Shown one piece after another: positions 3 to 16,800 of a DNA stretch of 21,058 nucleotides. The notes under the pieces are model-generated. The model searched no databases. It had not been told where the DNA came from and saw nothing but the letters and a program-made list of their open reading frames with translations. A program made the translations under genes and the position numbers. The DNA is from a virus: positions 1 through 21,058 of the IMG/VR virus record IMGVR_UViG_3300023179_000596. The stretch is one strand, 5' to 3'. Numbering within the stretch: position 1 is the first letter of the stretch; each line of letters starts with the position of its first letter.

Positions 3-209
3 GAGGGAACTCCTGAAATCCGAAATCTCGGTTCAGAACTCTACTTTAGCGACCTAAATTGGCGTGAGTTCTTCGTTTTCTTAGCGAAGGGCGATATATT
101 ACTCTACAAGGAGTATATGAAAACATCCGTTGAGGATGTCTTAACTTTGCTCAAGCATTTCCAAGAGGAAAAGCAACGAAAAGCTAAACAAGACACCAAT
201 GGCGGATAG
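3..209 (+). CDS. Probable tail assembly chaperone, 3' end (partial)
   Basis: An open frame runs from the window edge to a TAG at 207-209 and encodes at least 68 residues. It contains ELYFSDLNWREFF and FLAKGDILLYKEYM and ends in a charged helix rich in Lys, Glu and Gln. It overlaps the tape measure start by 11 bases in another frame. In siphoviruses the gene directly before the tape measure usually encodes a tail assembly chaperone (gpG/gpT type), often made with a programmed frameshift. The position and the small, helical, charged character fit that role, but I see no diagnostic motif, so the call rests on context. The 5' end, and any slippery site, lie outside the window. A competing frame from base 1 ends at 57 and could be the tail of an unshifted product. 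Confidence 0.5.
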   Translation, partial: EGTPEIRNLGSELYFSDLNWREFFVFLAKGDILLYKEYMKTSVEDVLTLLKHFQEEKQRKAKQDTNGG

Positions 210-3200
210 AATATCAGTAACCTATGATGCGAATATAGACGATTTAAGACGAAAGCTTGACGAGCTTATTGGTCTAAACGACAAGCTCGCTCAACACGCT
301 TTTGCTGCGGCCAAGGCCATTGGTGCCATATCCGATGCCCAAAAAGGAATGTCGGGAAATCTTAAAATTGTTAATCAGGATATTACAAAAATTGACAATT
401 CAACCAAAACGTTCAATAGCACCACCAATAAGTTACAGCAATCCATTCAAAGTACGACCAATACCACCAATAAGTTACAACAATCCATTAGCGTTACAAC
501 CAATACCGTTAATAAGTTTGATAACTCCATAAGGAACTCTGGCAACACGGTCAATAAGTTTGATGAATCCATAAGGAACTCCTTTAACACTCTAAGTCGT
601 TTTGGCGGTCAGGTTGGCTCGGTAGCGAAAAATGTTTCTGGATTTGATGGATTGTTGTCTCGTGTTGCATCAAGAATGGCCGCCTATTTTGCGATTGAGT
701 CGCTTGTAAACTTCGGAAAAGAACTCGTTAATGTAGAAAGGCGATTTGAGCTTTTGGAGAACAGAGTGAGCTTTGTGGCAGGAGCGACCACTATCGGCGA
801 TGCTATTATGGGTAGGCTCAAGAATACCGCTAACGAATTGGGCATTGGATTGGAGGAGTTGGTAAATGGTTTTGCGGGATTTGGTATTGCCGCAAAGATG
901 GCGGGATTTGGTGCTACGCAAACCGAGGAGATATTCACAAAGGTTGCCGTTTCGTTGCGTGCCGCAGGAGCAAATTCACTTCAAACACAAAGAGCATTTT
1001 ACGCTTTACAGCAAATGCTTTCTAAAGGCGTGGTATCTGCGGAAGAATTAAGGAGGCAGTTGGGCGAATCTCTTCCTGGGGCATCTGACCTTATGGCGGA
1101 GGCTTATCGAAGGTTGCATCCCGAGGCTAACATTACGAACAGAGAGTTTACTAAATTGCTTGAAAACGGTAAGATAATATCTGCGGAAATATTACCTGAG
1201 TTTGCTAACGTTCTTGAAGAAGAATTTTCTCCAGCATTATCGGGAAAGAAAAATTCATTGGACGCAGCTTTAACGAGAGCAGGCAATAGGCTCCTTGAGT
1301 TCAAGCGAATATTAGGTGATAAGGAATTTTTCAAAAGTGTGATTAATTCTTTTGACGATTTCGTTAAAGACGTTAATGCCGTTTTTTCCAATGCGAATCT
1401 TAGTGGAGTAGAGAAATTCTATGGATTCCTTAGGGCGGGAGCTTTGCTAACCGATGCCGAAATACGGGATTACAAGAGCAAGCTCATTGAATTGCCTTTT
1501 GGTATGGGGACTTTTGGAAGCCCCCTCATAAAGGCAAGGCTTGAAGGAGATAGGATTGTAAAGGAATCACTGAAGGCTCAAGAGAAACAAGCGGAGGACT
1601 TGGCGAAGAAAGAAGAAAGGCTGAATGAAATATCCAAAGAGCGAATAGGTATTTACTCAAAGCTATCTCAGGCAGGTAAAGAATCATATATAGAGCAAAA
1701 TAGGGCTTCAATAAAAAATTATGAAGACCAAATTGCGGCAATAAAAACACAGGCATCAGAGCAGAACGTTCTTCTTAAAATAACCGATGGACACAGAAAG
1801 GCGCTTGGTTACACAAAGCAAGAGTGGGCCGATATTGTAGAACTTGGTGATGCTTACGCTAAAATAGGAAGCAGATGGGGAGGGAAGTCGGTTCAGGCAA
1901 TAAAGGATAGAGTTAAACAAGAGCAGACCTCATTAAAAGAGCAGGAAAAGAGGCTTGTATTGTTAAAGGAGGAGGAGCTTGCAACCAAGGCCGCAATTAA
2001 AGCATATAAACCCGAAGGAGCAGGCGTAGATTCGGAAGGCGGTTCTATTACTGACATTAAGAAAGCCGAAATCGCTGCTTCCAAGGAATTGCTCGCCGCC
2101 GAAGAAACAAGACTTGAAAAAACCACCGAAGGAACGGTAGCTTATTACGACCAACTCATAAAAGTCATTGAGGCACGCAAGAACCTTGCCAAGGTTGAGC
2201 TAAGAGGCACGCCACAAGCAATGGCTTTGAGCCTTGCAAAGCTTGACAAAGACATGGAAAAGGCAAAGAAGATGATTTCGTCTTTTGACCCAAGCATTCC
2301 CGAAGTAATCATAGAGCCAGAGGTTGACATGGAGCCTCTTGAAAAGCTCGACAAGGAGATTAAGCAAATAAGGCAAGACGAACTTGAGTTAGCCGTGTAC
2401 AACGCCAAGGTTTTCGTTGAAAAATCCAAAGAGGGCACGACACAAAGGCTTGACGCCGAAAAACTTTTGGCCATAGAGACAGCCGCCCTTGAGGCGTTCA
2501 AGGTCAAAATTTCTTCCGACTCTCAGGAGTTGAAGGCGAAAAAAATAGAAGAAATAAATGCGAGATTAACCAACGAACTTGGTGAGCTTGGCAAAGAACA
2601 GGTTGACAGCGTTGAAAAGACAAACAAAGAAATTGTTGATATTATTCAAAGAGCAAACGACTTAATTGAGAAAACCGAATTAGACAGTTACAGTCGAAGG
2701 AGAGCCGTCTTGAAACAGCAATTTGAAAAGATGGCTCGGGACATTAAGGAAGCCATGTCCAAGACCGGTGATTTTGACACATTAGCCAAATTAACCAAGG
2801 CTCTTTCGGACGTAGAGGAGGCGGGCAAAAAGGCCATATCGAATCTCGACCTAAACCAAGTGGGAGAGACAATAGATGAGGTTGGGGGATTGTATTCGGC
2901 GGTTGCAAACTATCAGTCAACGATACTTCAAAACGAGGCAGACCTATTGAAAAAACAGCTTGACCAAAAGTTGATTAGCGAGGAGGAGTACAACATGAGG
3001 TCTATGCAAATAGAGAAAAAGAGGTTTGAACACGAGAAACAAGTAGCAACGCTTGAGGCCACGATAAATGCCGCATCGGGCATTGTAAAAGCCATTGCCC
3101 AACAGAGGTATTGGCAGGCGGCATTGATAACGGCTACTGCGGCCATTCAGATTGCAGCCATTCAGTCGCAACAATTTCCCGGATTCAAGGATGGCGTTAT

Positions 3201-3564
3201 TGACCTTGACGGCCCAGGCACGGGCACATCGGACAGCATACCTGCGAGGCTGTCTCGTGGAGAATCCGTAATGACCGCAGAGGAGACGAGGGACTATAAG
3301 CCTGTGCTTCAAGCCATTCGTGACAATAATTTCGAAGAGTTTATCACCAAGAAATACATTAACGCAATGAACGTTGAAGGAGGGGCAAGATCTCAGTCTT
3401 TTGCCGAGAACATAAGTAATTCGTTTGACATTCAGACCGCAGAGTTGGCGAATTTGCTGAAACAAAACAGGAAGGTGTCCATAAGAAACGTGGACGAGCT
3501 TGCCAGGGCGATGAGGCGGGAAAGCACTTCGGTCAAGGTGATAAATAGGAGGAGGTTTAAATGA
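199..3564 (+). CDS. Phage tail tape measure protein
   Basis: This 1121-residue protein should span the lumen of the tail tube and set tail length. Residues about 77-132 are four 14-residue tandem repeats (NKLQQSI/NKFDNSI type). Residues about 140-400 match the tape-measure N-terminal domain family, including the typical stretch around QMLSKGVVSAEELRRQLGES and LPGASDLMAEA. Long charged coiled-coil segments follow (about 455-520, 575-610, 715-930). A hydrophobic, Ala/Ile-rich helical segment lies at about 950-992, followed by a conserved-looking Gly/Asp end (GFKDGVIDLDGPG, SIPARLSRGESVM; about 995-1025). At the usual 1.5 angstrom per residue the tail would be about 170 nm, which is an estimate. 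The ATG at 199 lies inside the previous gene's end. The stop shares ATGA with the next gene. It is the most secure tail-gene call here. Confidence 0.95.
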   Translation: MADRISVTYDANIDDLRRKLDELIGLNDKLAQHAFAAAKAIGAISDAQKGMSGNLKIVNQDITKIDNSTKTFNSTTNKLQQSIQSTTNTTNKLQQSISVTTNTVNKFDNSIRNSGNTVNKFDESIRNSFNTLSRFGGQVGSVAKNVSGFDGLLSRVASRMAAYFAIESLVNFGKELVNVERRFELLENRVSFVAGATTIGDAIMGRLKNTANELGIGLEELVNGFAGFGIAAKMAGFGATQTEEIFTKVAVSLRAAGANSLQTQRAFYALQQMLSKGVVSAEELRRQLGESLPGASDLMAEAYRRLHPEANITNREFTKLLENGKIISAEILPEFANVLEEEFSPALSGKKNSLDAALTRAGNRLLEFKRILGDKEFFKSVINSFDDFVKDVNAVFSNANLSGVEKFYGFLRAGALLTDAEIRDYKSKLIELPFGMGTFGSPLIKARLEGDRIVKESLKAQEKQAEDLAKKEERLNEISKERIGIYSKLSQAGKESYIEQNRASIKNYEDQIAAIKTQASEQNVLLKITDGHRKALGYTKQEWADIVELGDAYAKIGSRWGGKSVQAIKDRVKQEQTSLKEQEKRLVLLKEEELATKAAIKAYKPEGAGVDSEGGSITDIKKAEIAASKELLAAEETRLEKTTEGTVAYYDQLIKVIEARKNLAKVELRGTPQAMALSLAKLDKDMEKAKKMISSFDPSIPEVIIEPEVDMEPLEKLDKEIKQIRQDELELAVYNAKVFVEKSKEGTTQRLDAEKLLAIETAALEAFKVKISSDSQELKAKKIEEINARLTNELGELGKEQVDSVEKTNKEIVDIIQRANDLIEKTELDSYSRRRAVLKQQFEKMARDIKEAMSKTGDFDTLAKLTKALSDVEEAGKKAISNLDLNQVGETIDEVGGLYSAVANYQSTILQNEADLLKKQLDQKLISEEEYNMRSMQIEKKRFEHEKQVATLEATINAASGIVKAIAQQRYWQAALITATAAIQIAAIQSQQFPGFKDGVIDLDGPGTGTSDSIPARLSRGESVMTAEETRDYKPVLQAIRDNNFEEFITKKYINAMNVEGGARSQSFAENISNSFDIQTAELANLLKQNRKVSIRNVDELARAMRRESTSVKVINRRRFK
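427..594 (+). repeat. Four in-frame 42-bp tandem repeats in the tape measure gene
   Basis: Four contiguous units start at 427, 469, 511 and 553, each beginning AATAAGTT. The unit is exactly 42 bp (14 codons), so repeat gain or loss keeps frame. Units 1-2 share AATAAGTTACA; units 3-4 share AATAAGTTTGAT. The encoded motif is NK(L/F)(Q/D)xSI plus a polar Thr/Asn/Ser-rich half. A degenerate copy (STTNKLQQSI without the full upstream half) precedes and a diverged one (LSRFGGQV) follows. Confidence 0.9.
3547..3555 (+). promoter_or_regulatory. Strong Shine-Dalgarno (AGGAGGAGG) before the 3561 start
   Basis: AGGAGGAGG lies 5 bases before the ATG at 3561, inside the last codons of the tape measure gene. 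Most other starts in this window have no such sequence. It supports the ATGA-overlap start at 3561. Confidence 0.75.
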
Positions 3565-5519
3565 GCTACACGATAATTCTTGACGGCAATGTCTTGGTCA
3601 ACGAGCCGATGGGCTTATTGGATGCCAAGCTGGAAATATATCGAGACAACCAAAACCCCGGCATATTTAACAGCTTTATTTCGGATGTTACTTTTTGGGG
3701 AGACGGGTACGACATTCTATTGTCGTATTTCGAGTCAAATGCTCCTTGCAAAACAGTTAAGATAAAGATAACGGAAGATTGCAACAACGGGCTTGACTTC
3801 AACGGGATTATTTATGTTGAAGACCTTGAAATAAACCTTGACAGATGCACGATATCATGTTCCATTGAGGACGATTCGGTGATTGGCCGTATAACGAGGT
3901 TTTCGGACACAAAGGTTCCCATAAATGGCGGGAAGAGTATGTCGTTACCTGCGGACGGTGGCGTGTCGCTCACCAATATAGGCTCGATAAAAAATACTCC
4001 TTACTATAATTCGTTTTCGGGCACATACACAACCATCCAAAAAAGATGGTTCAACATATTAGAGACCACGGATTATGTGCTCAAATACTTGACCGATGGC
4101 CAATGCAATGCCACGAGCAATTATCTTACCGATGCCTCTAAGGTTTACCGACCAGATACTTGGCAGATAACGGTTACTTTTGCGAACCTTCCTTCCGTTA
4201 TTGTTCCTTCGGCAAACTATTGGTTTGTTACGTTTAGAATTAAGGGAGATGTATTTGGCGATGACATATTGATTACCTCGATATTGTCGGGCCTTCAACC
4301 GTGGGCTGCGGCCTACAACTTGGCAAATGTTTTGAGTTCGCACACATGGAATATTCTTCAGCCAGGCGTTATTAATTTCACCAATGATGATGTGAACAGG
4401 GGGAACATTCCCACAAGGGCCTTTTCTTTGTATTCACCAACAAATCTTCCCGCAACCCCTGCCACCGACCCCGCCCCAATTTATCTTGAATTTCCGTGGA
4501 ATGTATCGGCGATTGAACTTGTTGATGTAAGAAATTGGAACAACACCGTATCGGATTTAAGCAGGTTGCAGGTTACCATAACGAGTCCTGCGAGTGAGTC
4601 GGGCGGATCGAATACAACTTTTAATTATGGAGCGACCAACTTCGTGTTTACTTCGGGGAACATATTGAGGTCTCCTTCTGCCAACACAAATGCCCCTTTC
4701 GTTGGTAAGGATGAAATAATGAACGTTTCTTTCAGCGACTTGTCTCAGGGCGTTTTCAGTCTTTTCAATCTTTGCATTATACCGAAAAGAAATCCAAACG
4801 GGACTTATACGATAGAGCTTGAGACGGAGCCCGAAACCTTTGACTCTTCCACGCAGATTCTTCAGATTGACGATATAAAAGACTTGATGCTTAAGAGAAG
4901 CGATGACTTTGTTTTTTCTTCTCTTGAAACGGGGTTGACCAATTCAAGAACTAATTTCCCGCTACACCAATCCACGGGCTTCACCACCAATAGCTGTTCG
5001 GACAATTCGTATAATGCTGTTTCTCCATTTTGCCCCTCCAACTATGGAGATATTGCGTTTAGAAGCGAGAACATTTCGGAGGAGAACATTTATATGGCGG
5101 AGCTTTACACTCCGAACCCAAATTTGATAGCCTTCTATCAGGTAACGAAATCTCAATATTCTACGGTATCGTCGGCCCAGGGTAATATTCAGAGGCAATC
5201 TTATCAGGAGTCTTGTTACTCGGTGATAAACCATTTTGTTGCAAGAAACCACGTAAACAAGAGTCGTAACGGCTATTTGCTTAGGGGTCAGAGTATTCCT
5301 AAGTTGAACAATTATTTCCCCTGGTGGAACATAACGGGTCTTGACGTTTCGATTCGCAACTCGATTGAGTTTGAGTACCCGATTACCACGAGCGATATTA
5401 ATGCTATTTTAGCAAATCCGTTTGGCTATATTCTTTGCAATGGAAGAAAGGGATGGATAAACAAGATATCGTATTCTATAAGAACGGGAATGACAACCTT
5501 TGAACTTCTGACCGAATGA
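3561..5519 (+). CDS. Probable distal-tail/baseplate structural protein
   Basis: The 652-residue protein is encoded directly behind the tape measure gene (ATGA overlap), the usual place for the distal-tail or tail-tip hub protein. It is soluble and beta-rich, with no signal peptide or membrane helix. The N-terminal ~130 residues (IILDGNVLVNEPMG, GLDFNGIIYVEDLEI) read like an adaptor domain. The C-terminal ~60 residues (EFEYPITTSDINAIL, GRKGWINKISYSI) resemble the closing strands of tail-tip proteins. The middle is Ser/Thr/Asn-rich. I do not recognise a catalytic motif. The strong ribosome-binding site at 3547-3555 makes the start secure. The function follows from position and composition; it could also be the tail-tip hub rather than a Dit-like ring. 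Confidence 0.6.
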   Translation: MSYTIILDGNVLVNEPMGLLDAKLEIYRDNQNPGIFNSFISDVTFWGDGYDILLSYFESNAPCKTVKIKITEDCNNGLDFNGIIYVEDLEINLDRCTISCSIEDDSVIGRITRFSDTKVPINGGKSMSLPADGGVSLTNIGSIKNTPYYNSFSGTYTTIQKRWFNILETTDYVLKYLTDGQCNATSNYLTDASKVYRPDTWQITVTFANLPSVIVPSANYWFVTFRIKGDVFGDDILITSILSGLQPWAAAYNLANVLSSHTWNILQPGVINFTNDDVNRGNIPTRAFSLYSPTNLPATPATDPAPIYLEFPWNVSAIELVDVRNWNNTVSDLSRLQVTITSPASESGGSNTTFNYGATNFVFTSGNILRSPSANTNAPFVGKDEIMNVSFSDLSQGVFSLFNLCIIPKRNPNGTYTIELETEPETFDSSTQILQIDDIKDLMLKRSDDFVFSSLETGLTNSRTNFPLHQSTGFTTNSCSDNSYNAVSPFCPSNYGDIAFRSENISEENIYMAELYTPNPNLIAFYQVTKSQYSTVSSAQGNIQRQSYQESCYSVINHFVARNHVNKSRNGYLLRGQSIPKLNNYFPWWNITGLDVSIRNSIEFEYPITTSDINAILANPFGYILCNGRKGWINKISYSIRTGMTTFELLTE

Positions 5520-7285
5520 TTACACCGAATCAACCTATATCGTGCGTGCCAAGCACCATAACGAATGTCGCTCCTGTGGATGCCGCAACAAAGGCTAATT
5601 ATTATACCCCAGGAAGCGGTTCGGTTGGAAGAAGTAACCTCTCGGGGCTTGGCGTTGACGTTACTTTCACGGGCTCTGGGGCAAGATACTTGGCTGTTAA
5701 TTACGGAGTAATATCAAATAAAGACTGCAAAAACTCTATTTTAACAATCACTATATCCAATTTCACACAAACGGGAAGCAATATTTTATACATCTATGGA
5801 TATAATGGAGTTGAGATTACAGGGAATGGAACATACAATATCCCAATCAAAACGGCTGAATTTAATTTTGAATTAGCAGGCACTACCACGCTATCGTTCA
5901 GAATAACCTCGGTTCAGGTTTATTGCATTTCCGAGATTGAAGGCTGTGATAATTGCAAGACAGGAGAGTACCAACAGCCTATACTCATAGAGTACAATGG
6001 CTCTGGGTGGGTTTCGGAGTCTCTCAGCTTTCAGGCTCCTGCGCTTAGGTTCAAAAATCTTGTTTATAGCATTTGCGAAGGAAACCCCGAGTGGACATTA
6101 TCGCCTGGATGGGGAACGATAGACACAACGCCGGTTTGCGGTGTGGACTTAAACTATTGCTATCCGAGCGCAGGAACATACAATGGTTTTGTGAATGGCC
6201 TTTTTTCTTCTTCTTTAATAAATGGGAAGAGGTATAGAATATCTTATACTTTGGAGGAGATAGGGGGAGAGTTTTGCGGATTTGTAAATACAATGGGCAT
6301 CCTTAGTCCTTCTGCGGCAACGTTTACCGATGACGCTGTTTGTCCGGGCGATTATGTTCATTATTTTGATTATACGGGAGCAAGCTATTTGACAGGGACA
6401 AGCATAAACTTTAGCGTTAGGACAAATTCGGATGGCAAGATAAAGATGAGAATTAGCAACGTGAGGGTGGATGAGCTTGGAGGATACACGGCCACCTTGC
6501 TTCCATCGGATTTGATTTGGTCTTCTGGGTTTTCTAATTTCTACCAAAGCATAAAGACGCAGGTTGATTCCGAGTCTTTTTATGGAGACACCTTTTTCTC
6601 CACTTTTCACTTTGTATCCAACCATCCTAACGCAGCATTTAATAAAAACGATTGCTTTAGGCTGCTTATTACAAGCGACACAAATAATGGTGGAAACGAT
6701 TGGTATTGCTTGAGCGAGGAATACAAATGGGTTACGGATGAGTGCAATACTATAAGGGTTATGGCCACTCAAGACGTAACGAGTACCGAGGGAGTTTGTG
6801 CTTTTGGCTTTGATTACAAGCCCACTCCAAAGTTCTTTCATCTAATGAGGGTTTACGGAGAGCTAAGGAATCCGCAATACGATGGCGAGGTGGTATCGTA
6901 TCAAGATAGCGCAGGTCGCAAGAAGGTTGTTTATGCGGAGAGCAGGGAGTTTATGGAGCTTGTGATTAACCACGCACCCAAGTATATCCACAACTTCCTG
7001 AGACTTGCTTGTAGGCACGACATATTCAATCTTAATGATTCTATCCTCCCTGCGGCAGATTACTTCACAAGGTCTGAGACGTACTCTCCCACTTGGATTC
7101 GCACACGCACTCTTGCCCCTGCTTTCCTTGAGGTGGAGGTGAAGGAGCAGAATTTGAGGAAAGTTCCTTGTTGCGATCCTATTCACGAAAATCCTTCCGA
7201 GTGCGATGTGGATTGTGAGCCTTGTGAAAGAGCGCCTGTTGTAGAGCCTGGAGGCGGAGGTGGTGAAGAGCCTGGAGGCGGTTAA
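5516..7285 (+). CDS. Large tail-tip protein with beta-rich, carbohydrate-binding-like segments and Cys/Gly-rich C-terminus
   Basis: The 589-residue protein starts in an ATGA overlap with the preceding tail gene. Two beta-rich segments (about residues 45-140 and 190-320) read like jelly-roll carbohydrate-binding modules: alternating hydrophobic/Thr strands, GTYNIPI and GKRYRISYTLEE turns, closing in RITSVQVY and RISNVRVDEL. Between them lies a CDNC pair (C144, C147). A different segment (about 430-550; FHLMRVYGELR, VVYAESREFMELVI) is probably the virion-anchoring part. The C-terminus carries Cys 552, 553, 563, 567 and 570, then VVEPGGGGG and EEPGGG. It is probably a tail-tip or receptor-contact protein. 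The codons around 5700-5880 look more AT-rich than their neighbours, consistent with module acquisition. No enzyme motif is visible. Confidence 0.55.
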   Translation: MITPNQPISCVPSTITNVAPVDAATKANYYTPGSGSVGRSNLSGLGVDVTFTGSGARYLAVNYGVISNKDCKNSILTITISNFTQTGSNILYIYGYNGVEITGNGTYNIPIKTAEFNFELAGTTTLSFRITSVQVYCISEIEGCDNCKTGEYQQPILIEYNGSGWVSESLSFQAPALRFKNLVYSICEGNPEWTLSPGWGTIDTTPVCGVDLNYCYPSAGTYNGFVNGLFSSSLINGKRYRISYTLEEIGGEFCGFVNTMGILSPSAATFTDDAVCPGDYVHYFDYTGASYLTGTSINFSVRTNSDGKIKMRISNVRVDELGGYTATLLPSDLIWSSGFSNFYQSIKTQVDSESFYGDTFFSTFHFVSNHPNAAFNKNDCFRLLITSDTNNGGNDWYCLSEEYKWVTDECNTIRVMATQDVTSTEGVCAFGFDYKPTPKFFHLMRVYGELRNPQYDGEVVSYQDSAGRKKVVYAESREFMELVINHAPKYIHNFLRLACRHDIFNLNDSILPAADYFTRSETYSPTWIRTRTLAPAFLEVEVKEQNLRKVPCCDPIHENPSECDVDCEPCERAPVVEPGGGGGEEPGGG

Positions 7286-8031: not shown

Positions 8032-8979
8032 ATGAGTGAACAAACCACGGGAATAGTGATTATGGCTTTTGGAAAGTCAGCCTATCACGAAATGGCCTAC
8101 AACTTTGCAATATCGGTTAAGGCTAATGACAGAGACCTCCCCATTCAGTTGATATGCGACAGCAAGGATGTGCTTTTGCCAAGCAAGTATTGGGTCTTTG
8201 ACATTATTACGATTATTGACCAAGAGGACTTGTACTCTGGTCGTGGGTTCAGCCCAGGTAGAGCCAAGACGAGAATGGACAAGTATTTAGCCTTTGACAA
8301 CAACTTGTATTTTGACACCGATGGCGTGGCGTTAAAGTCTTTACAGCCATTGATTGACTTGCTTCTTGCGTTACCTGAAATCGGTTATTTCTATTCGCAA
8401 GTAGCCTCTTGGGACAACCCAAGAGGAGGAACGCCCAAGGCGAACTTAAAAAGGGATGGAGCGGATTTCCCTGCAATGCAATGGGCTACTCTTGACGCCA
8501 TTTGGGAGTTCCACGAACTTGACGATGATGCCGAAGTTGTGGCGATAAACAGCTCGTTTATGTTCCTTCGCAAAGGGCAGAAGCTCACCAATTTCTTTGA
8601 GCAAGTAAGGGACAACATTGACAATGGAATCCCTGTGGATAGGCTTAAAATGGCTTGGGGAGGCACTTATCCTGATGAACTCGCCTTCAACATCGCTTGT
8701 GCCCAATACAAGATTGACCCGTTTTGCGGCGTGAATCCTGTTTACTTTCAATACCGAAATGCTTTATCGGCCAAGGTTATTCCTTGGATGAACGAGAACT
8801 ATTATGTTCTTGGGTTATTTGGTGGGGCGGGTTTTTCGCACAATTCGGCTTGGGAGCATTCCTGTGCCCTTTTGGGGCAATACCACGCCAAGTTCGGATT
8901 GACACACGAGTACAAGTGGCACAACCTTGTGAGACAAAAGCACGCAGGACAGCAAAAGCAGCTGATACGATGGAAATGA
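8032..8979 (+). CDS. GT-A fold glycosyltransferase (cassette gene 1)
   Basis: The 315-residue cytosolic protein begins with a first Rossmann-type strand (TGIVIMAFG), so the start cannot be far downstream of 8032. A typical metal- and nucleotide-sugar-binding DxD is at residues 95-97 (YFDTDG), preceded by RAKTRMDKYLAF as in GT-A enzymes that read a host or glycan acceptor. Further on, AINSSFMFLRKG and WGGTYPDELAFNIA resemble the acceptor/catalytic half of GT8-like enzymes. There are no membrane segments. It is the first gene of a five-gene sugar cassette and shares ATGA with the next gene. The transferred sugar cannot be read from the sequence. The family is best described as a poorly classified GT-A glycosyltransferase. 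Confidence 0.7.
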   Translation: MSEQTTGIVIMAFGKSAYHEMAYNFAISVKANDRDLPIQLICDSKDVLLPSKYWVFDIITIIDQEDLYSGRGFSPGRAKTRMDKYLAFDNNLYFDTDGVALKSLQPLIDLLLALPEIGYFYSQVASWDNPRGGTPKANLKRDGADFPAMQWATLDAIWEFHELDDDAEVVAINSSFMFLRKGQKLTNFFEQVRDNIDNGIPVDRLKMAWGGTYPDELAFNIACAQYKIDPFCGVNPVYFQYRNALSAKVIPWMNENYYVLGLFGGAGFSHNSAWEHSCALLGQYHAKFGLTHEYKWHNLVRQKHAGQQKQLIRWK

Positions 8980-9617
8980 GCGGATTCATTTCGGTAATAA
9001 CCTCCTGCAAAGGCCGTATGCACCATTTGGAGGAGACTTTACCCACTTGGCTTTCGCAGATTGGAGACAATTACGAGGTTATCGTGGTGGACTATGGAGA
9101 CCCCGACAAGAGTGCCGACTATGTGGAGGCTTTGAAAGACCCAAGAGTTCGTGCTGTTAGGCACGATGCCGAAGGCTTTAACCTTAGCCACGCAAGAAAC
9201 ATTGGTGCTTTGGCTGCTTCGGAGAAGGCGGATACCTTTATGTTTATTGATGCGGATGCGTTGATGACCAACCATTCGTTCTTGAATTACCACAAGATGA
9301 AGGTTATGGAAGGAGGAACATTTGTAACGGGATGGCGATATGGCGATGGTACGGGATGTTGTATGATTTGGAAGGAGTTGTTTTACAGAGCGAAGGGTTA
9401 CAACGAGGTAGTGGATGGGTGGGGCATTGACGATGTTGATTTTTATTGGAGGGTGGAGCAGATGGGCTTTGAGCAAAGGGGATTTCACAACGGTATTGAA
9501 ACGATTAAGCACGATGATGAGGACAGGGTAAGATTTTATGCGAACAAGAATATTTGGGATACCAATGATAGAAACCATCGGCTTTCCAAGAGGACTTTCA
9601 TAAGTTGCATACCGTGA
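8976..9617 (+). CDS. GT2-type glycosyltransferase with GT7C-like motif (cassette gene 2)
   Basis: The 213-residue protein should transfer a sugar from a nucleotide donor. It has the GT2 opening (SVITSCKGRMHHLEETLP, then YEVIVVDYGDPD), a donor/metal motif FIDADAL with D92 and D94, and the galactosyltransferase C-terminal signature G-W-G-I-D-D-V-D-F at 148-156. That combination is typical of galactosyl/N-acetylgalactosaminyl-transferases related to chondroitin-synthase domains. The start at 8976 is chosen because its ATGA overlaps the stop of gene 1 and the GT2 fold begins right there; the ATG at 8970 is also possible. The open frame extends upstream to 8724, but that part overlaps gene 1 and does not look like a GT domain. 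No signal peptide or membrane helix is present. Confidence 0.85.
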   Translation: MSGFISVITSCKGRMHHLEETLPTWLSQIGDNYEVIVVDYGDPDKSADYVEALKDPRVRAVRHDAEGFNLSHARNIGALAASEKADTFMFIDADALMTNHSFLNYHKMKVMEGGTFVTGWRYGDGTGCCMIWKELFYRAKGYNEVVDGWGIDDVDFYWRVEQMGFEQRGFHNGIETIKHDDEDRVRFYANKNIWDTNDRNHRLSKRTFISCIP

Positions 9618-10477
9618 GCATTAAGGTAAGGGCAATATGTAATTGGACTGATTCTACGTCTTTGAATCGCAGGATTATGGAGCAGTCTTTATGGAGTGAG
9701 GCCGATGGCATTGAGTTTGTTGATGACGATTCCTATGATTGGCTTGTAGTGTTTAACGACAAAAGAGGGGCAGAGCCTCGTGTCCCCAAGGAACGAGTCA
9801 TAGGTTTCATCCAAGAGCCACCAGACCACGATTTCTTTGACCGAGGCATTGGGTCTTACTGCTCCGTTGTTTACACTTGCACCGAGCCACAAGCCTATGG
9901 TATTGAGGGCAACTTGGTTGGGTTTCCTTGCGGTATGTTTTACCACATGGATGGGCCTTTGTCGGATTACCTTGACGGCTTTGACAAGCGGAGGGCGATA
10001 AGCATGGTAACGAGCAACATCGCCCACGGATTTTACCTCTTTAGATATAAGATAGCCAAGGAACTTGCCTCTTGCGGATGGGTTGATGTTTATGGCCGTG
10101 GCTTGAATGTAAGGGGATGCAAGGGCGAACTCGGCAACAAGGCCGATGGGTTGATTCCTTACAAGTTCTCGGTATGTATGGAGAACGGCATTTGGAACGA
10201 TTACATCTCCGACAAGATTATTGATGCTGTTCTATGTAGAACCGTTCCGATTTATGTGGGGGCAAGGAACATCCACGAGCATATCCCTTTTGCCATTCGC
10301 CTTGAATCGTATGGCAACGCTTCCTTTGCAAAGGCCGAGATTGAACACATCGTGTCTTCAGTTGATTACGATTTCATTCTGCCACAAATGAACGCTTGGG
10401 TTCATAAGTATGCGAACGAATACACGATTTACTCAAAGATAAAAAACCACATTTATAGTGAAAAAAGTATTTCTTGA
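9614..10477 (+). CDS. GT10 fucosyltransferase-like glycosyltransferase (cassette gene 3)
   Basis: The 287-residue protein carries the GT10 donor-site signature: VYGRGLN (about 159-165), GCKGELGNK, then IPYKFSVCMENG (181-192), NDYISDKIIDAVL and TVPIYVGARN. GT10 enzymes are mostly alpha-1,3/1,4-fucosyltransferases using GDP-fucose, although the sugar used by phage members is not fixed by the motif. The start is taken as the GTG at 9614 because it forms a GTGA overlap with gene 2; a TTG at 9605 is in frame but less likely. There is no signal peptide, as in bacterial GT10 enzymes. The gene overlaps the next one by 20 bases. Family assignment is secure; the acceptor is unknown. Confidence 0.88.
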   Translation: MSIKVRAICNWTDSTSLNRRIMEQSLWSEADGIEFVDDDSYDWLVVFNDKRGAEPRVPKERVIGFIQEPPDHDFFDRGIGSYCSVVYTCTEPQAYGIEGNLVGFPCGMFYHMDGPLSDYLDGFDKRRAISMVTSNIAHGFYLFRYKIAKELASCGWVDVYGRGLNVRGCKGELGNKADGLIPYKFSVCMENGIWNDYISDKIIDAVLCRTVPIYVGARNIHEHIPFAIRLESYGNASFAKAEIEHIVSSVDYDFILPQMNAWVHKYANEYTIYSKIKNHIYSEKSIS

Positions 10478-11042
10478 TTGCGGAACGCACCTTTGCGAGG
10501 GGCTGAATCACTTTATCGCAAACGGCCTTATAGACAATTCCTTTGAGGTACACACCTTTGAGGCCAATCCTGCCTGCAACATAGGCGAGAGAGTCAAGGA
10601 TTTGCCTATCAAGGTCAAATGCCACAATGTAGCCGTTTGGGTAAAGGACGGTTATGTTCAGTTCAACCAAGAGAACCACAAGAAAAGTGGGAGCAACTCG
10701 CCGACAGACGGGGCTTCTGACATTGACGGATGGGGTTCTTCAGTAAGCGAAACGGGCTTTGTTCATGCCGGATATGATACGCAAGTAAAAGTCAAGAGCA
10801 TTGACTTTTCCAAATTCCTGGGCAAGTTCTCCAAAGATGATTTGATTTACTGCAAGATGGACATTGAGGGAAGCGAGTTTTTCGTGTTGAGGCATTTGAT
10901 TGAAACGGGTGAGATTGCTAAGATTAACACCCTTTTCGTTGAGTTTCATCCGATAAACATTGCCTGTGAATCTCAAAAAACGATTGATGGCCTGGTTCAC
11001 CACATTAAGAGCCACGGGGTTGATGTGAAGATGTGGTGGTAA
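10458..11042 (+). CDS. FkbM-type SAM-dependent methyltransferase (cassette gene 4)
   Basis: The 194-residue protein has the SAM-binding motif I at its very N-terminus (FLDCGTHLCEG, residues 5-15), an acidic second-strand residue (HTFEANP) and the FkbM hallmark MDIEGSEFFVLRHL starting at residue 134. FkbM enzymes are O-methyltransferases that often methylate sugar hydroxyls in glycan and antibiotic clusters. The GTG at 10458 is needed because motif I starts five codons later; it lies inside the end of the GT10 gene. The position between glycosyltransferases suggests that it methylates the glycan they build. Which hydroxyl is modified cannot be told. No membrane or export signals are seen. Confidence 0.88.
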   Translation: MKKVFLDCGTHLCEGLNHFIANGLIDNSFEVHTFEANPACNIGERVKDLPIKVKCHNVAVWVKDGYVQFNQENHKKSGSNSPTDGASDIDGWGSSVSETGFVHAGYDTQVKVKSIDFSKFLGKFSKDDLIYCKMDIEGSEFFVLRHLIETGEIAKINTLFVEFHPINIACESQKTIDGLVHHIKSHGVDVKMWW

Positions 11043-11750: not shown

Positions 11751-13616
11751 ATGACAACAGAGGAAATTCTGCCGTTGTTAGACCATATCATAGCGGAGTA
11801 CAAGAAGTACGAGGTTAAGAAAAAGTCTGACAAGTTCTATATTCCCGATTTCTACCCAACCTACAAGGCTTGTGTGGAGATGGAGATGAGGCTTCGGATT
11901 CACTCCGATTACGATGCCTTCCCCGAAAAGCTATTTCGAGAGAAAGCTCCCAACGAGCTTCCCCACGAGTTCAATTACCGAAAGAACATTTACAAGCCGA
12001 TTACCGTTCCTTACTTCCATAAGGCGGTAAACATTGCGGGGAGGGTATGGAACAGGCAGAATTACGAGGTTCGCTTTGAGGATGCCTCTCAGGAAAAGTA
12101 TTTCAATGAGGAATATCCTCGTTTTGGCTCGTTAGAGAATTACTTTCAGCAGATTACCAACTTTATGACCTTGACCGACCCCAATGCGGTCTTGGCCATT
12201 ATGCCCACCGACCTTCAATACTTTGAGGATGGAACGTTTAATGACACGGTAGAAACCACTCCCGTTGCCCGTTGCTTTCACTCCAAGCGAGTTTGGGGGT
12301 GGAAAGAGAATGAGTATGCTATCCTAAAAGCCGATTACGGCTCGGAGGTTGAGCATGGTCGTGTTAAGTCCGATGAAGGCTTGGTATTCTACATCTTTGA
12401 TAAGAATGAGATTCAGATAGCCAAGCAAATCGGGAAGAAGGGCGATTACGAGTTTGAGATAGAGCTTTACTATCGCCACAACCTTGGTTATTTGCCTTGC
12501 ACGAGGCTCGGAGGTATTTCGGTGCAGGAACACGGAGATTACTATTTCCAATCGTTTTACACCCCTGCTATCCCTGCATTAGACCAAGCCGTGTGCGATT
12601 TCAGCACCTTGCAGATGTCCAAGTTCAGCCACGCTTTCTTGCAGAAGTGGGAGTATGTGGATGATTGCGATAAGTGTAACGGATCGGGGCAGATTGAGGA
12701 GGCTTTAGGCTTTGAGGAGAAGGTGGCGATTGCTTGTTCAAATTGCGGAGGTTCTGGCACGAAGCGAATGTTCGGCCCGATGTCTGTCTATCAAGTGCAG
12801 ACCCCGAATCGCTTTACTACCGAGGTGGAAACTAAGGTGAACATCCCTCCTGCGGGTTTCATTGAGTTAGACCCACAGATTCTTGATTTCTTGAACAAAC
12901 AAGTCATTACGAATATTCAAATGGCCTTTGAGTTGTTGTCTATTGACGTAATGAACAACGAGAAGATTTCGGGAAGGGAAACCGCCACAGGTAAGGCTAT
13001 TGACAGGGAGGAATTGTATTCCTTCCTGCTCCGTTTTGCCAACACCATCTTTGCCGACTATGAGTTCGCTATGGACACGATTGGGAGGATGCGTTATGGG
13101 GATGCTTGGTCTATGCCTGCGGTTCGCTATCCGCAGAACTTTGAGATGCGTACCGATGCGGAATTGACCGCAGAGATTAAGTTAGCTCCGACCTTTTCCA
13201 AGGCGATGTTGGCACAGCAGTACCTTGACACTCGCTTTCCCATTCAGGAGGAGAAGAGTGCGATAATGAAGTTGAGCGTGCAGGTTGATCCGTTCTTCAA
13301 TCTTGAAACGAGGGATGTCTTGGCGTTGGTTGCTTCGGGCATTGCCCCCAAGTGGAAGGCGATAATGCACTTTGAGTTGGAGTCTTTGATTAAGGAGGCT
13401 TTGTCGGAGAACGAGCAGTTCTTGACGCTGACCTTGGCCGAGCAGAAGGCGGTGTTGATAGAGATGGCCAAGAAGTTAGTGCCAGAGGATGAAGGCTCTT
13501 CGAGGCTTACTGCTCAGAGCGTTATGAACGCACGGACGGCTGTACCTGCCGCACCGGTAGAGGAAGAAGAAGATGAAGAAGGCGAGGAGGAAGAGGAGGA
13601 GGAGGAAGAATCGTAA
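11751..13616 (+). CDS. Portal protein with DnaJ-like zinc motif
   Basis: The 621-residue protein is read as the portal, the ring through which DNA enters and leaves the capsid. Its size, mixed helical fold, position directly before the Mu F-like minor head protein, scaffold and capsid genes, and segments such as NYRKNIYKPITVPYF, PAIPALDQAVCDF and ATGKAIDREELYSFL fit portals of Bacteroidota siphoviruses. An insert at about 300-340 carries C306-x2-C309-NGSG and C329-x2-C332-GGSG, the repeat of the DnaJ cysteine-rich domain. The C-terminus (about 603-621) is almost pure Glu/Asp. Its GAG/GAA codons create the ribosome-binding site of the next gene. The start at 11751 follows a -7 box and a leader of about 50 bases. 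No Shine-Dalgarno sequence is seen. Confidence 0.85.
   Translation: MTTEEILPLLDHIIAEYKKYEVKKKSDKFYIPDFYPTYKACVEMEMRLRIHSDYDAFPEKLFREKAPNELPHEFNYRKNIYKPITVPYFHKAVNIAGRVWNRQNYEVRFEDASQEKYFNEEYPRFGSLENYFQQITNFMTLTDPNAVLAIMPTDLQYFEDGTFNDTVETTPVARCFHSKRVWGWKENEYAILKADYGSEVEHGRVKSDEGLVFYIFDKNEIQIAKQIGKKGDYEFEIELYYRHNLGYLPCTRLGGISVQEHGDYYFQSFYTPAIPALDQAVCDFSTLQMSKFSHAFLQKWEYVDDCDKCNGSGQIEEALGFEEKVAIACSNCGGSGTKRMFGPMSVYQVQTPNRFTTEVETKVNIPPAGFIELDPQILDFLNKQVITNIQMAFELLSIDVMNNEKISGRETATGKAIDREELYSFLLRFANTIFADYEFAMDTIGRMRYGDAWSMPAVRYPQNFEMRTDAELTAEIKLAPTFSKAMLAQQYLDTRFPIQEEKSAIMKLSVQVDPFFNLETRDVLALVASGIAPKWKAIMHFELESLIKEALSENEQFLTLTLAEQKAVLIEMAKKLVPEDEGSSRLTAQSVMNARTAVPAAPVEEEEDEEGEEEEEEEEES
12666..12746 (+). 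other. DnaJ-type CxxCxGxG pair encoded inside the portal
   Basis: Two motifs, CDKCNGSG (from C306) and CSNCGGSG (from C329), are 20 residues apart between the inner cysteines. In the DnaJ family two such motifs form one four-Cys zinc site. Here they would form a single zinc-ribbon hairpin projecting from the portal body. The motif is seen directly; zinc binding is inferred. Confidence 0.8.
13594..13605 (+). promoter_or_regulatory. Shine-Dalgarno-like AGGAGGAGGAGG in the portal's acidic tail
   Basis: AGGAGGAGGAGG lies 12 bases before the ATG at 13618 and is part of the Glu codons ending the portal gene. It supports 13618 as the start of the minor head protein, although the spacing is longer than usual. 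Confidence 0.5.
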
Positions 13617-13617
13617 T

Positions 13618-14424
13618 ATGACTTTAGAGCAAATTCAGTCCAAGAAGCAGAAGAACTTGGACACGATTGGCGAGGAGTTTGGCAAGCAGGTGGAGGAATC
13701 GCAGAACGAGGTTCTGCCCCTTATCATTGCCCTGCTCGCCTTATTTGATTACGACAAGGATGGGAACATCTCGTTTGACACGGCCAATTACGCTCGTGTC
13801 AATGCCTTTATGGATGGAGTGGATGGGGCCGTTGCCGGGAGCAAGTATTTTGATGCCTTGGTCTTCTTGATGGGCAAGGTGGATGCCCAGGCCGAACTTA
13901 CCAGAGAGATGTACCGCAAGATGGGCCTTGACCCCGATGCGGTTTCAGGCATTGATTACGAGGCCCAAGCGACCTCTATGCTTGAGGACTTGACCAACTT
14001 TAAGTCGGGCTTTTCAACGGCCTTGAGAAACTTTATCCTTGCGTCTATTGCCTCTGGCTCTGACCGAACCGCTTTGGAGGAGGGCATTGCCCAAATCGTG
14101 AAAGGGGGTGGTGGAAAAAAGGGGTTGCTCTTTGACACGGCCACGCTTACGGCTGACACGATGTTTGCGGTGATTGACCGCTCCTTCACCTTTGCGATGG
14201 GCGAGGCTTTGGGCATTAAGAAATACTTGTACGCAGGAGGCTTAGTAAACGATTCTCGGCCATTTTGTGTGGCGAGGGATGGTAAGGTATTCACGAAGGA
14301 AGAAGTGCGCTCCTGGGGCAAATTAGGCGATTGGAAGGGCAAGATTGTTGGCACCGATGAATCCACCATTTTTATCTACTTGGGAGGCTATCGTTGCAGG
14401 CATTGGCTTATCCCTCAAGTTTAG
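13618..14424 (+). CDS. Mu F-like minor head (head morphogenesis) protein
   Basis: The 268-residue protein follows the portal by one base. The first ~200 residues are helical and Ala/Leu/Asp-rich. The end carries the Mu gpF/SPP1 gp7-like signature: NDSRPFCVARDGKVFTKEE (N211-C217 onward) and GGYRCRHWLIP (C260, H262), the Cys/His pattern typical of this family. Such proteins are packaged in small numbers with the portal and act in head assembly or early DNA delivery. The start at 13618 is preferred over the in-frame ATG at 13573, which would add a run of Lys/Arg created by reading the portal's Glu codons in another frame. FDYDKDGNISFD (about residues 43-54) looks like an EF-hand-type DxDxNG loop, an unusual feature for the family. 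Confidence 0.8.
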   Translation: MTLEQIQSKKQKNLDTIGEEFGKQVEESQNEVLPLIIALLALFDYDKDGNISFDTANYARVNAFMDGVDGAVAGSKYFDALVFLMGKVDAQAELTREMYRKMGLDPDAVSGIDYEAQATSMLEDLTNFKSGFSTALRNFILASIASGSDRTALEEGIAQIVKGGGGKKGLLFDTATLTADTMFAVIDRSFTFAMGEALGIKKYLYAGGLVNDSRPFCVARDGKVFTKEEVRSWGKLGDWKGKIVGTDESTIFIYLGGYRCRHWLIPQV

Positions 14425-15738: not shown

Positions 15739-16800
15739 ATGTCATACGCTTTTTCATCCTTCGTATCGTGTCCTAATATTCAGGAGCGTTTGGATGCCGG
15801 TTACTTCAATGCCGACCCAACGATGTTCCCTGGACACATCAATACCCTTCGTGCGGTTACAAGCCCAATGAACGAATCGGGTATTTTGCAAAACCAGATT
15901 GACTCCAAGAACGGTCATTACCGCCAAGTGGAGGTCGTGTATCAGCCTCGAATGACTGATGCCACCTCTGTTTCTGCGACCTTGAACTGTGCTGCTGGAG
16001 CCGAATATGGTGAAACCTCACGGGTTTACAACATTGACCCCAATGTAGGCGCATCTCGCAGATGGTCTATTGGTCTTGATGATTTAGCTCCTCGTTGCGA
16101 AAACGATGAGACCTATATCGCTCGCCAATTAGCTATGCAGATGCAGGCTATCAAAAGGTTCATGAACCAAGAGGCCGTTACATTCATTGCCACAAACAAT
16201 GGCTTGTACTCCTCCGACCCAGGTTCTACCGTGAATGTGGCTCGCACCCTGTTGACCACTCGGACCAAGGCTCAAAACGTATCTTACGTTTATGCCGATG
16301 ACTTCATGTCCGATGTGATTTATCAGTATCAGTTGGCCGAGGCTTGGGACCGCCCCATCATCATTGGCGGTGAGCTTGTCCAGAAGTACATGACCGCATT
16401 GAAATCTCATTGCTGTGCAACGGTAAACGTTGACCTTCAGCAAATGATGAACTCCGATGCTCAGTCGTATTTCTTCTTTGAGCCTCGCATTGGTGCTGCC
16501 CAGGGCAACGCTAACGGCTTCGCATTCCTCGCCCCAGGCGGTGTGCAGATGATCCGTTACAACGCCTTCCGTGGTGCTAACGGCATCCGTGTAATTGATG
16601 ACCAATCCATTAAGAAGGGTACGATTTCCGACCCTGAGACCGGCTTGGAATTTGATTACTATGCTCAGTTGGATTGTAACCAATGGAAATTCTTCATTGG
16701 TCTTTCCTACAAGTTTGTAACGCTGCCTTCTGATGTGTTCTTCTTGAACGACCAGCTCCGTGGCGTGAACTACATCTTCGAGGGTACTGTGAACAACTAA
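15739..16800 (+). CDS. Major capsid protein (HK97-like)
   Basis: The 353-residue protein lies between the scaffold and connector genes, and its gene is followed at once by a strong terminator. It has the length and order expected of an HK97-fold capsid protein: an N-terminal arm (SCPNIQERLDAGYFNADP), a long helix (YIARQLAMQMQAIKRFMNQE), a central P-domain region, and a beta-rich end (FFIGLSYKFVTLPSDVFFL). There is no obvious prohead protease gene in the window, and the arm is short, so a maturation cleavage is not evident. A/U-rich leader bases precede the ATG, with no Shine-Dalgarno sequence. The identity is from position and fold-like pattern; the exact family could not be checked. Confidence 0.8.
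   Translation: MSYAFSSFVSCPNIQERLDAGYFNADPTMFPGHINTLRAVTSPMNESGILQNQIDSKNGHYRQVEVVYQPRMTDATSVSATLNCAAGAEYGETSRVYNIDPNVGASRRWSIGLDDLAPRCENDETYIARQLAMQMQAIKRFMNQEAVTFIATNNGLYSSDPGSTVNVARTLLTTRTKAQNVSYVYADDFMSDVIYQYQLAEAWDRPIIIGGELVQKYMTALKSHCCATVNVDLQQMMNSDAQSYFFFEPRIGAAQGNANGFAFLAPGGVQMIRYNAFRGANGIRVIDDQSIKKGTISDPETGLEFDYYAQLDCNQWKFFIGLSYKFVTLPSDVFFLNDQLRGVNYIFEGTVNN

Follow-up and report, generated by a model that had tools for sequence, protein, structure and literature searches.

A conserved four-cysteine motif, probably a zinc knuckle, in the predicted clip of PHROG 7376 phage portal proteins

In known phage portals, the polypeptide runs in the order stem, clip, stem, tunnel loop and long helix, and the clip differs from phage to phage. 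To our knowledge, descriptions of portal assemblies do not usually include a metal. Paired CxxCxGxG repeats belong to a different setting: in the DnaJ-type class two such repeats make one zinc site, and DnaJ itself has four repeats and two zincs. According to two reports, the clip of other phages sits outside the capsid, against the adaptor (PMC12886913, PMC11445458). In the tailed Staphylococcus phage 812, one of the neck proteins, the stopper, carries a tetra-cysteine loop in which a zinc is held by four cysteines, and loops of this type are said in that report to be confined to Herelleviridae (PMC12886913). In the literature searched, where most subscription papers were outside its reach, no description of zinc in a phage portal was recognised.

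The DNA analyzed here (the window) comprises 21,058 nucleotides of IMG/VR virus record IMGVR_UViG_3300023179_000596, and its ORF at 11751-13616 is a portal gene. The PHROG 7376 'portal protein' profile matched residues 195-555 of the 621-aa product (E = 1.7e-16). The match persisted over residues 367-555 when residues 300-340 were masked (E = 3.5e-8), indicating that membership in PHROG 7376 does not depend on the cysteine motif described below. The AF2 model of the portal (mean pLDDT 72.7, pTM 0.59, input alignment of 35 sequences) gave 62 Foldseek matches in the PDB at E ≤ 0.001, and the titles of the 50 that were listed are all portals or tail, neck or vertex entries containing a portal. 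With VIA-align, the best match was the SH-Ab15497 portal (Z 20.2, rmsd 6.2, 323 residues); the T7 (Z 18.5) and SPP1 (Z 17.8) portals and other portals (Z 15-20) also matched, and the lambda and P22 portal chains likewise aligned. The expected portal elements were present in the model, namely the wing, two stem helices flanking the clip, the tunnel loop and the long helix.

Within this portal, two half-sites of the forms C306xxC309xGxG and C329xxC332xGxG are separated by a loop (Table 1). The interval 12666-12746 begins with the codon of C306 and ends with that of C332, and the final glycine ends at 12758. Among 200,000 shuffles of the portal protein, at least one CxxCxGxG occurred in 29 and a pair of them within 60 residues in none, so the paired motif is not a product of chance. 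An earlier note on this DNA had reported two exact DnaJ-type repeats inside a portal ORF, and our analysis confirmed their sequence, their coordinates and the identity of the portal. The word 'exact' is true of the motif; the Pfam DnaJ_CXXCXGXG profile (PF00684) scored 21.7 bits on the whole window portal and 32.3 bits on the window clip alone, both under its cut-off of 32.7 bits.

Table 1 Features of the portal gene and its cysteine motif in the window
Feature	Position	Strand	Basis
Portal protein gene, 621 aa	11751-13616	+	PHROG 7376 match and AF2 portal fold
Putative first stem helix, residues 271-295	12561-12635	+	AF2; assigned from fold order
Putative clip domain, residues 296-374	12636-12872	+	AF2, beta-rich between stem helices; fold order
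First half-site CDKCNGSG, residues 306-313	12666-12689	+	Translation; C306 and C309 in 122/122 aligned portals covering them
Loop between half-sites, residues 314-328	12690-12734	+	Length and sequence variable in relatives
Second half-site CSNCGGSG, residues 329-336	12735-12758	+	Translation; C329 and C332 in 122/122 aligned portals covering them
Putative second stem helix, residues 375-395	12873-12935	+	AF2
Probable tunnel loop, residues 399-411	12945-12983	+	Low-confidence AF2 loop; named by analogy

The AF2 secondary structure consists of a helix at residues 271-295, strands at 299-305, 314-319, 323-328 and 346-350, a helix at 375-395, a loop of low model confidence at about 399-411, and a helix at 412-452. 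This helix-clip-helix-loop-helix order is that of known portals and would place the motif in the clip, between the two stem helices. The placement derives from a monomer model with middling confidence in the clip, where pLDDT is 46-70 across the block and about 64-70 around the motif.

We analyzed the conservation of the four cysteines across relatives of the window portal. A first scan identified 77 viral loci, of which 72 cover both half-sites and the other 5 end at contig edges; both half-sites are kept in all 72, including one locus at 51% identity (L076). Later scans added a locus at 37% identity (L094) and a second clade (L095-L119), which was recovered using seed peptides from outside the motif. 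In the conservation alignment of 111 rows, named phage portals included, C306, C309, C329 and C332 are each cysteine in 111/111, and a further 11 named portals all carry the four. Overall, 122/122 aligned portals spanning these positions, 103 of them distinct, keep the four cysteines, even where identity falls to about 13-20%; the relatives include portals from phages of Bacteroides, Flavobacterium, Polaribacter and Pseudanabaena. Conservation in relatives was the check that the earlier note had set for its proposal, and the proposal passed it. The full set of cysteines in the window portal is 41, 175, 250, 282, 306, 309, 329 and 332; those outside the motif vary, being cysteine in 67 (C41), 70 (C175), 73 (C250) and 48 (C282) of the 111 rows. 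In 32 representatives with less than 80% identity, only eight residues are invariant (D217, P249, C306, C309, C329, C332, P352 and L426). The cysteine codons switch between TGC and TGT among close relatives while the residue stays constant (C309: TGT in 43 and TGC in 29 of 72 loci), as expected if selection acts on the residue. PHROG 7376 was matched by 8/8 portals scanned, as well as by those of P12002L and Pan5. At the level of sequence, the four-cysteine motif is characteristic of PHROG 7376 portals and no local insertion. A genome-contig scan for prophages related to the window clade found no relative.

The spacing of the cysteines is less uniform. The commonest arrangement, C-x2-C-x19-C-x2-C, is found in 75/111 rows, mostly close relatives of the window, and across other portals the inner cysteines are separated by 10 to 25 residues. 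The spacing of the first pair differs by clade (x2, x4 or x9-10): in phages of Bacteroides, Parabacteroides, Alistipes, Elizabethkingia and Croceibacter the first pair is C-x9/10-C and the second CPxC-like, and in three Flavobacterium phages the first pair is C-x4-C. A tree of 31 rows gathers the x9-10 forms into a single group (support 95/91), and the x4 form occurs at two places, once in L094 and once among the Flavobacterium phages; the deep branching order is insecure because the window clade is attached via a long branch. The glycines of the DnaJ pattern are mostly missing in the Bacteroidales phage branch and, given the changes of spacing between clades, are not universal. Among the portal sequences read, only some members of the family therefore show the glycine pattern, and all of them have the four cysteines.

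To characterize the kind of motif, the clip was folded alone (67 residues, mean pLDDT 70.7). In a Foldseek search with this model, the first twelve rows were UvrA chains and the next ones DnaJ domains and lambda Q, and the UvrA zinc modules superposed with an rmsd of 1.1 Å over 35 columns. These structural matches were weak (best Foldseek E 0.1, none reaching 0.001; best VIA Z 4.2), and they partly restate the motif, since Foldseek uses sequence too. A clip profile search returned E. coli DnaJ (1exk, E = 3.8e-7), UvrA (3e-4) and lambda Q (0.02), and PF00684 matched 29/29 clip sequences, picked from 35 rows of a larger alignment, at E ≤ 0.1. The portal is not a DnaJ chaperone, as only a stretch of the central domain matches; no J domain or full-length DnaJ was detected in it, and NCBIfam DnaJ_bact scored 18.1 bits against a cut-off of 377.2. 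The PHROG 'anti-termination protein Q-like' and Pfam Anti-TRAP annotations were discarded because their matches cover the knuckle only. The four clip cysteines very probably form a small zinc-holding knuckle. The zinc hairpin proposed in the earlier note is well supported: the cysteines are invariant, the glycines are mostly kept and the modelled clip is knuckle-like.

We infer that the metal is zinc, that its role is structural and that it recurs around a dodecameric ring. It is likely that the four cysteines make up one structural zinc site, a knuckle of the DnaJ/UvrA type, that locks the base of the clip hairpin. Each CxxCxGxG half-site would supply two cysteines to one zinc, which would give one zinc per subunit and twelve around the ring. 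The zinc would stand in for a hydrophobic core, stapling the base of the hairpin, and the stapled clip would hold its shape while binding the terminase motor during packaging and, later, the neck adaptor. By analogy with other phages, the clip of this portal would dock both partners, and a docking role for the motif is plausible from its position alone. A more far-reaching proposal is that this whole family of tailed-phage portals cannot do without a ring of twelve zinc knuckles at the channel exit, which would dock terminase and adaptor and maintain the shape, and that packaging would consequently require the portal to be loaded with zinc; this seems to us rather unlikely.

The same knuckle could instead serve chiefly as a binding surface, with a ring of twelve at the mouth of the channel recognising terminase, adaptor or DNA and the variable loop providing specificity. 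The position of the motif in the clip would suit such a role, as would the fact that variation falls in the loop between the half-sites, with its 10 to 25 residues, and that the related knuckles of UvrA and lambda Q come from proteins that handle nucleic acids. However, the conserved part is the metal core, without a conserved surface patch, and the loop has no invariant residue in the relatives. Conservation of the cysteines but not of the loop tip points to stabilisation more than to a conserved binding surface, and we regard recognition as the chief function as a possibility to be taken seriously, though not the expected one. Among the roles that the earlier note had proposed for the hairpin, stiffening is favoured. 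Binding of scaffold is less likely, because the motif lies in the predicted clip, which in other portals projects from the capsid towards the terminase and adaptor. A related suggestion, in which the portal gained a DnaJ-like module that binds scaffold or capsid protein in the manner of a chaperone, draws on the match of the DnaJ central-domain profile to every one of the 29 clip sequences. The portal has just two of DnaJ's four repeats, however, and neither a J domain nor a full-length DnaJ match; most of the glycines are absent from the Bacteroidales phage branch, and in known portals the clip is on the side away from the scaffold. We consider this origin very improbable.

Other chemistry could also be asked of four invariant cysteines. 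Two CxxC pairs are able to form disulfides, which do occur in a herpesvirus portal, and a disulfide or redox switch might alter the clip on leaving the reducing cytoplasm. The CxxCxGxG signature and the knuckle-like model fit a metal better, however, and the first pair in Bacteroidales phages is C-x9/10-C, which is no CxxC redox motif; disulfides or a switch are therefore improbable. Four invariant cysteines could likewise ligate one iron-sulfur cluster, but the glycine pattern and the closest structural rows are those of zinc proteins, and [4Fe-4S] entries for TudS appeared only as very weak Foldseek rows (prob 0.03-0.04). A cluster is very improbable. The reading that best accommodates the evidence is a structural zinc site in the clip.

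The neighborhood of the portal gene in the window was also inspected. Upstream, at 8724-11042, lie genes for a glycosyltransferase of family 2, a glycosyltransferase of family 10 and an FkbM methyltransferase. The called start of the ORF that follows the portal (13573-14424; MKKARRKRRRRKNR...) reads the poly-Glu codons of the portal in a different frame, and the ORF more likely begins with the ATG at 13618, immediately after the portal stop. The C-terminal end of its product (RPFCVARDGKVFTKEEV...YRCRHW) presumably resembles a Mu F-type minor head protein; no Mu F-type minor head Pfam match was listed for the product at E up to 1. Genes probably coding for scaffold and capsid protein, assigned by position and without a family match, come after the portal. 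The ORF at 15739-16800 is, by position only, the probable major capsid gene, and a tblastn search of 50,697 phage records with its product found nothing at E 0.001. Elsewhere in the window, the ORF at 199-3564 encodes a tape measure protein (PF20155, E = 5.9e-24) with zero cysteines in 1121 residues, and a 589-aa ORF at 5516-7285 has 20 cysteines, two CxxC pairs and no family match. In four relatives (G001, G002, G003 and G005, the contigs of L019, L011, L035 and L094), the candidates for the terminase large subunit (PF03237) are separated from the downstream portal gene by about 14-17 kb and are not adjacent to it, unlike in Polaribacter phage P12002L, Pan5 and Rhodobacteraceae phage MD05, where the terminase adjoins the portal.

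Comparison with known systems places the window portal within a family whose members keep the site. The PHROG 7376 portals of Polaribacter phage P12002L and Pseudanabaena phage Pan5 are homologous to it and keep the four clip cysteines, and those of Bacteroides phage B40-8, Parabacteroides phage PDS1 and Flavobacterium phage Fpv5 are likewise homologous and keep the four cysteines, the window clade standing on a long branch relative to the family. The portals of Bacteroides, Parabacteroides, Croceibacter and Flavobacterium phages differ from it in their C-x9/10-C or C-x4-C first pair and in mostly lacking the glycine pattern. A solved structure is available within this family: PDB chain 9wwa_A, a portal protein, is identical to the Parabacteroides phage PDS1 portal over 575 residues, and the window-family profile matched it almost end to end (E = 7.7e-35). 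Its four clip cysteines, residues 284, 295, 318 and 321 of the PDS1 portal, align with those of the window portal, in the form C-x10-C ... CPKC. The 9wwa chain did not appear in the rows of the structure search, an absence that carries no weight. No publication on the 9wwa structure was found in the literature searched, and the Cys4 site may already be known to its authors.

The feature that this family conserves most strongly is a probable metal site, at the place where docking of motor and neck proteins would be expected, in a family that ranges over phages of gut Bacteroides and Parabacteroides, of flavobacteria and of a cyanobacterium as well as uncultured metagenome viruses. The four cysteines and zinc chelation offer a simple, testable approach to what preserves the shape of the clip when the motor is exchanged for the adaptor. 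The Cys4 signature also provides a way to recognise portals of this family; in sequence records, many of them carry the name 'hypothetical protein' or 'capsid protein'.

With the knuckles of the DnaJ Cys-rich domain, the UvrA zinc module, lambda Q and Anti-TRAP, the portal motif has CxxCxGxG pairs and probably a hairpin shape in common; these proteins are otherwise unrelated to the portal, which has one pair of repeats. The tetra-cysteine loop of phage 812 differs in belonging to a stopper protein and in its Cys-Pro-Cys pattern. Among model portals, no CxxC occurs anywhere in HK97 gp3, T7 gp8, lambda B, P22 gp1 or T4 gp20. The earlier note had described the motif as no part of the standard portal fold, which is correct against these five and does not hold within PHROG 7376, where the motif is standard. 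In the sequences compared, every PHROG 7376 portal read has the Cys4 site and none of the five model portals does.
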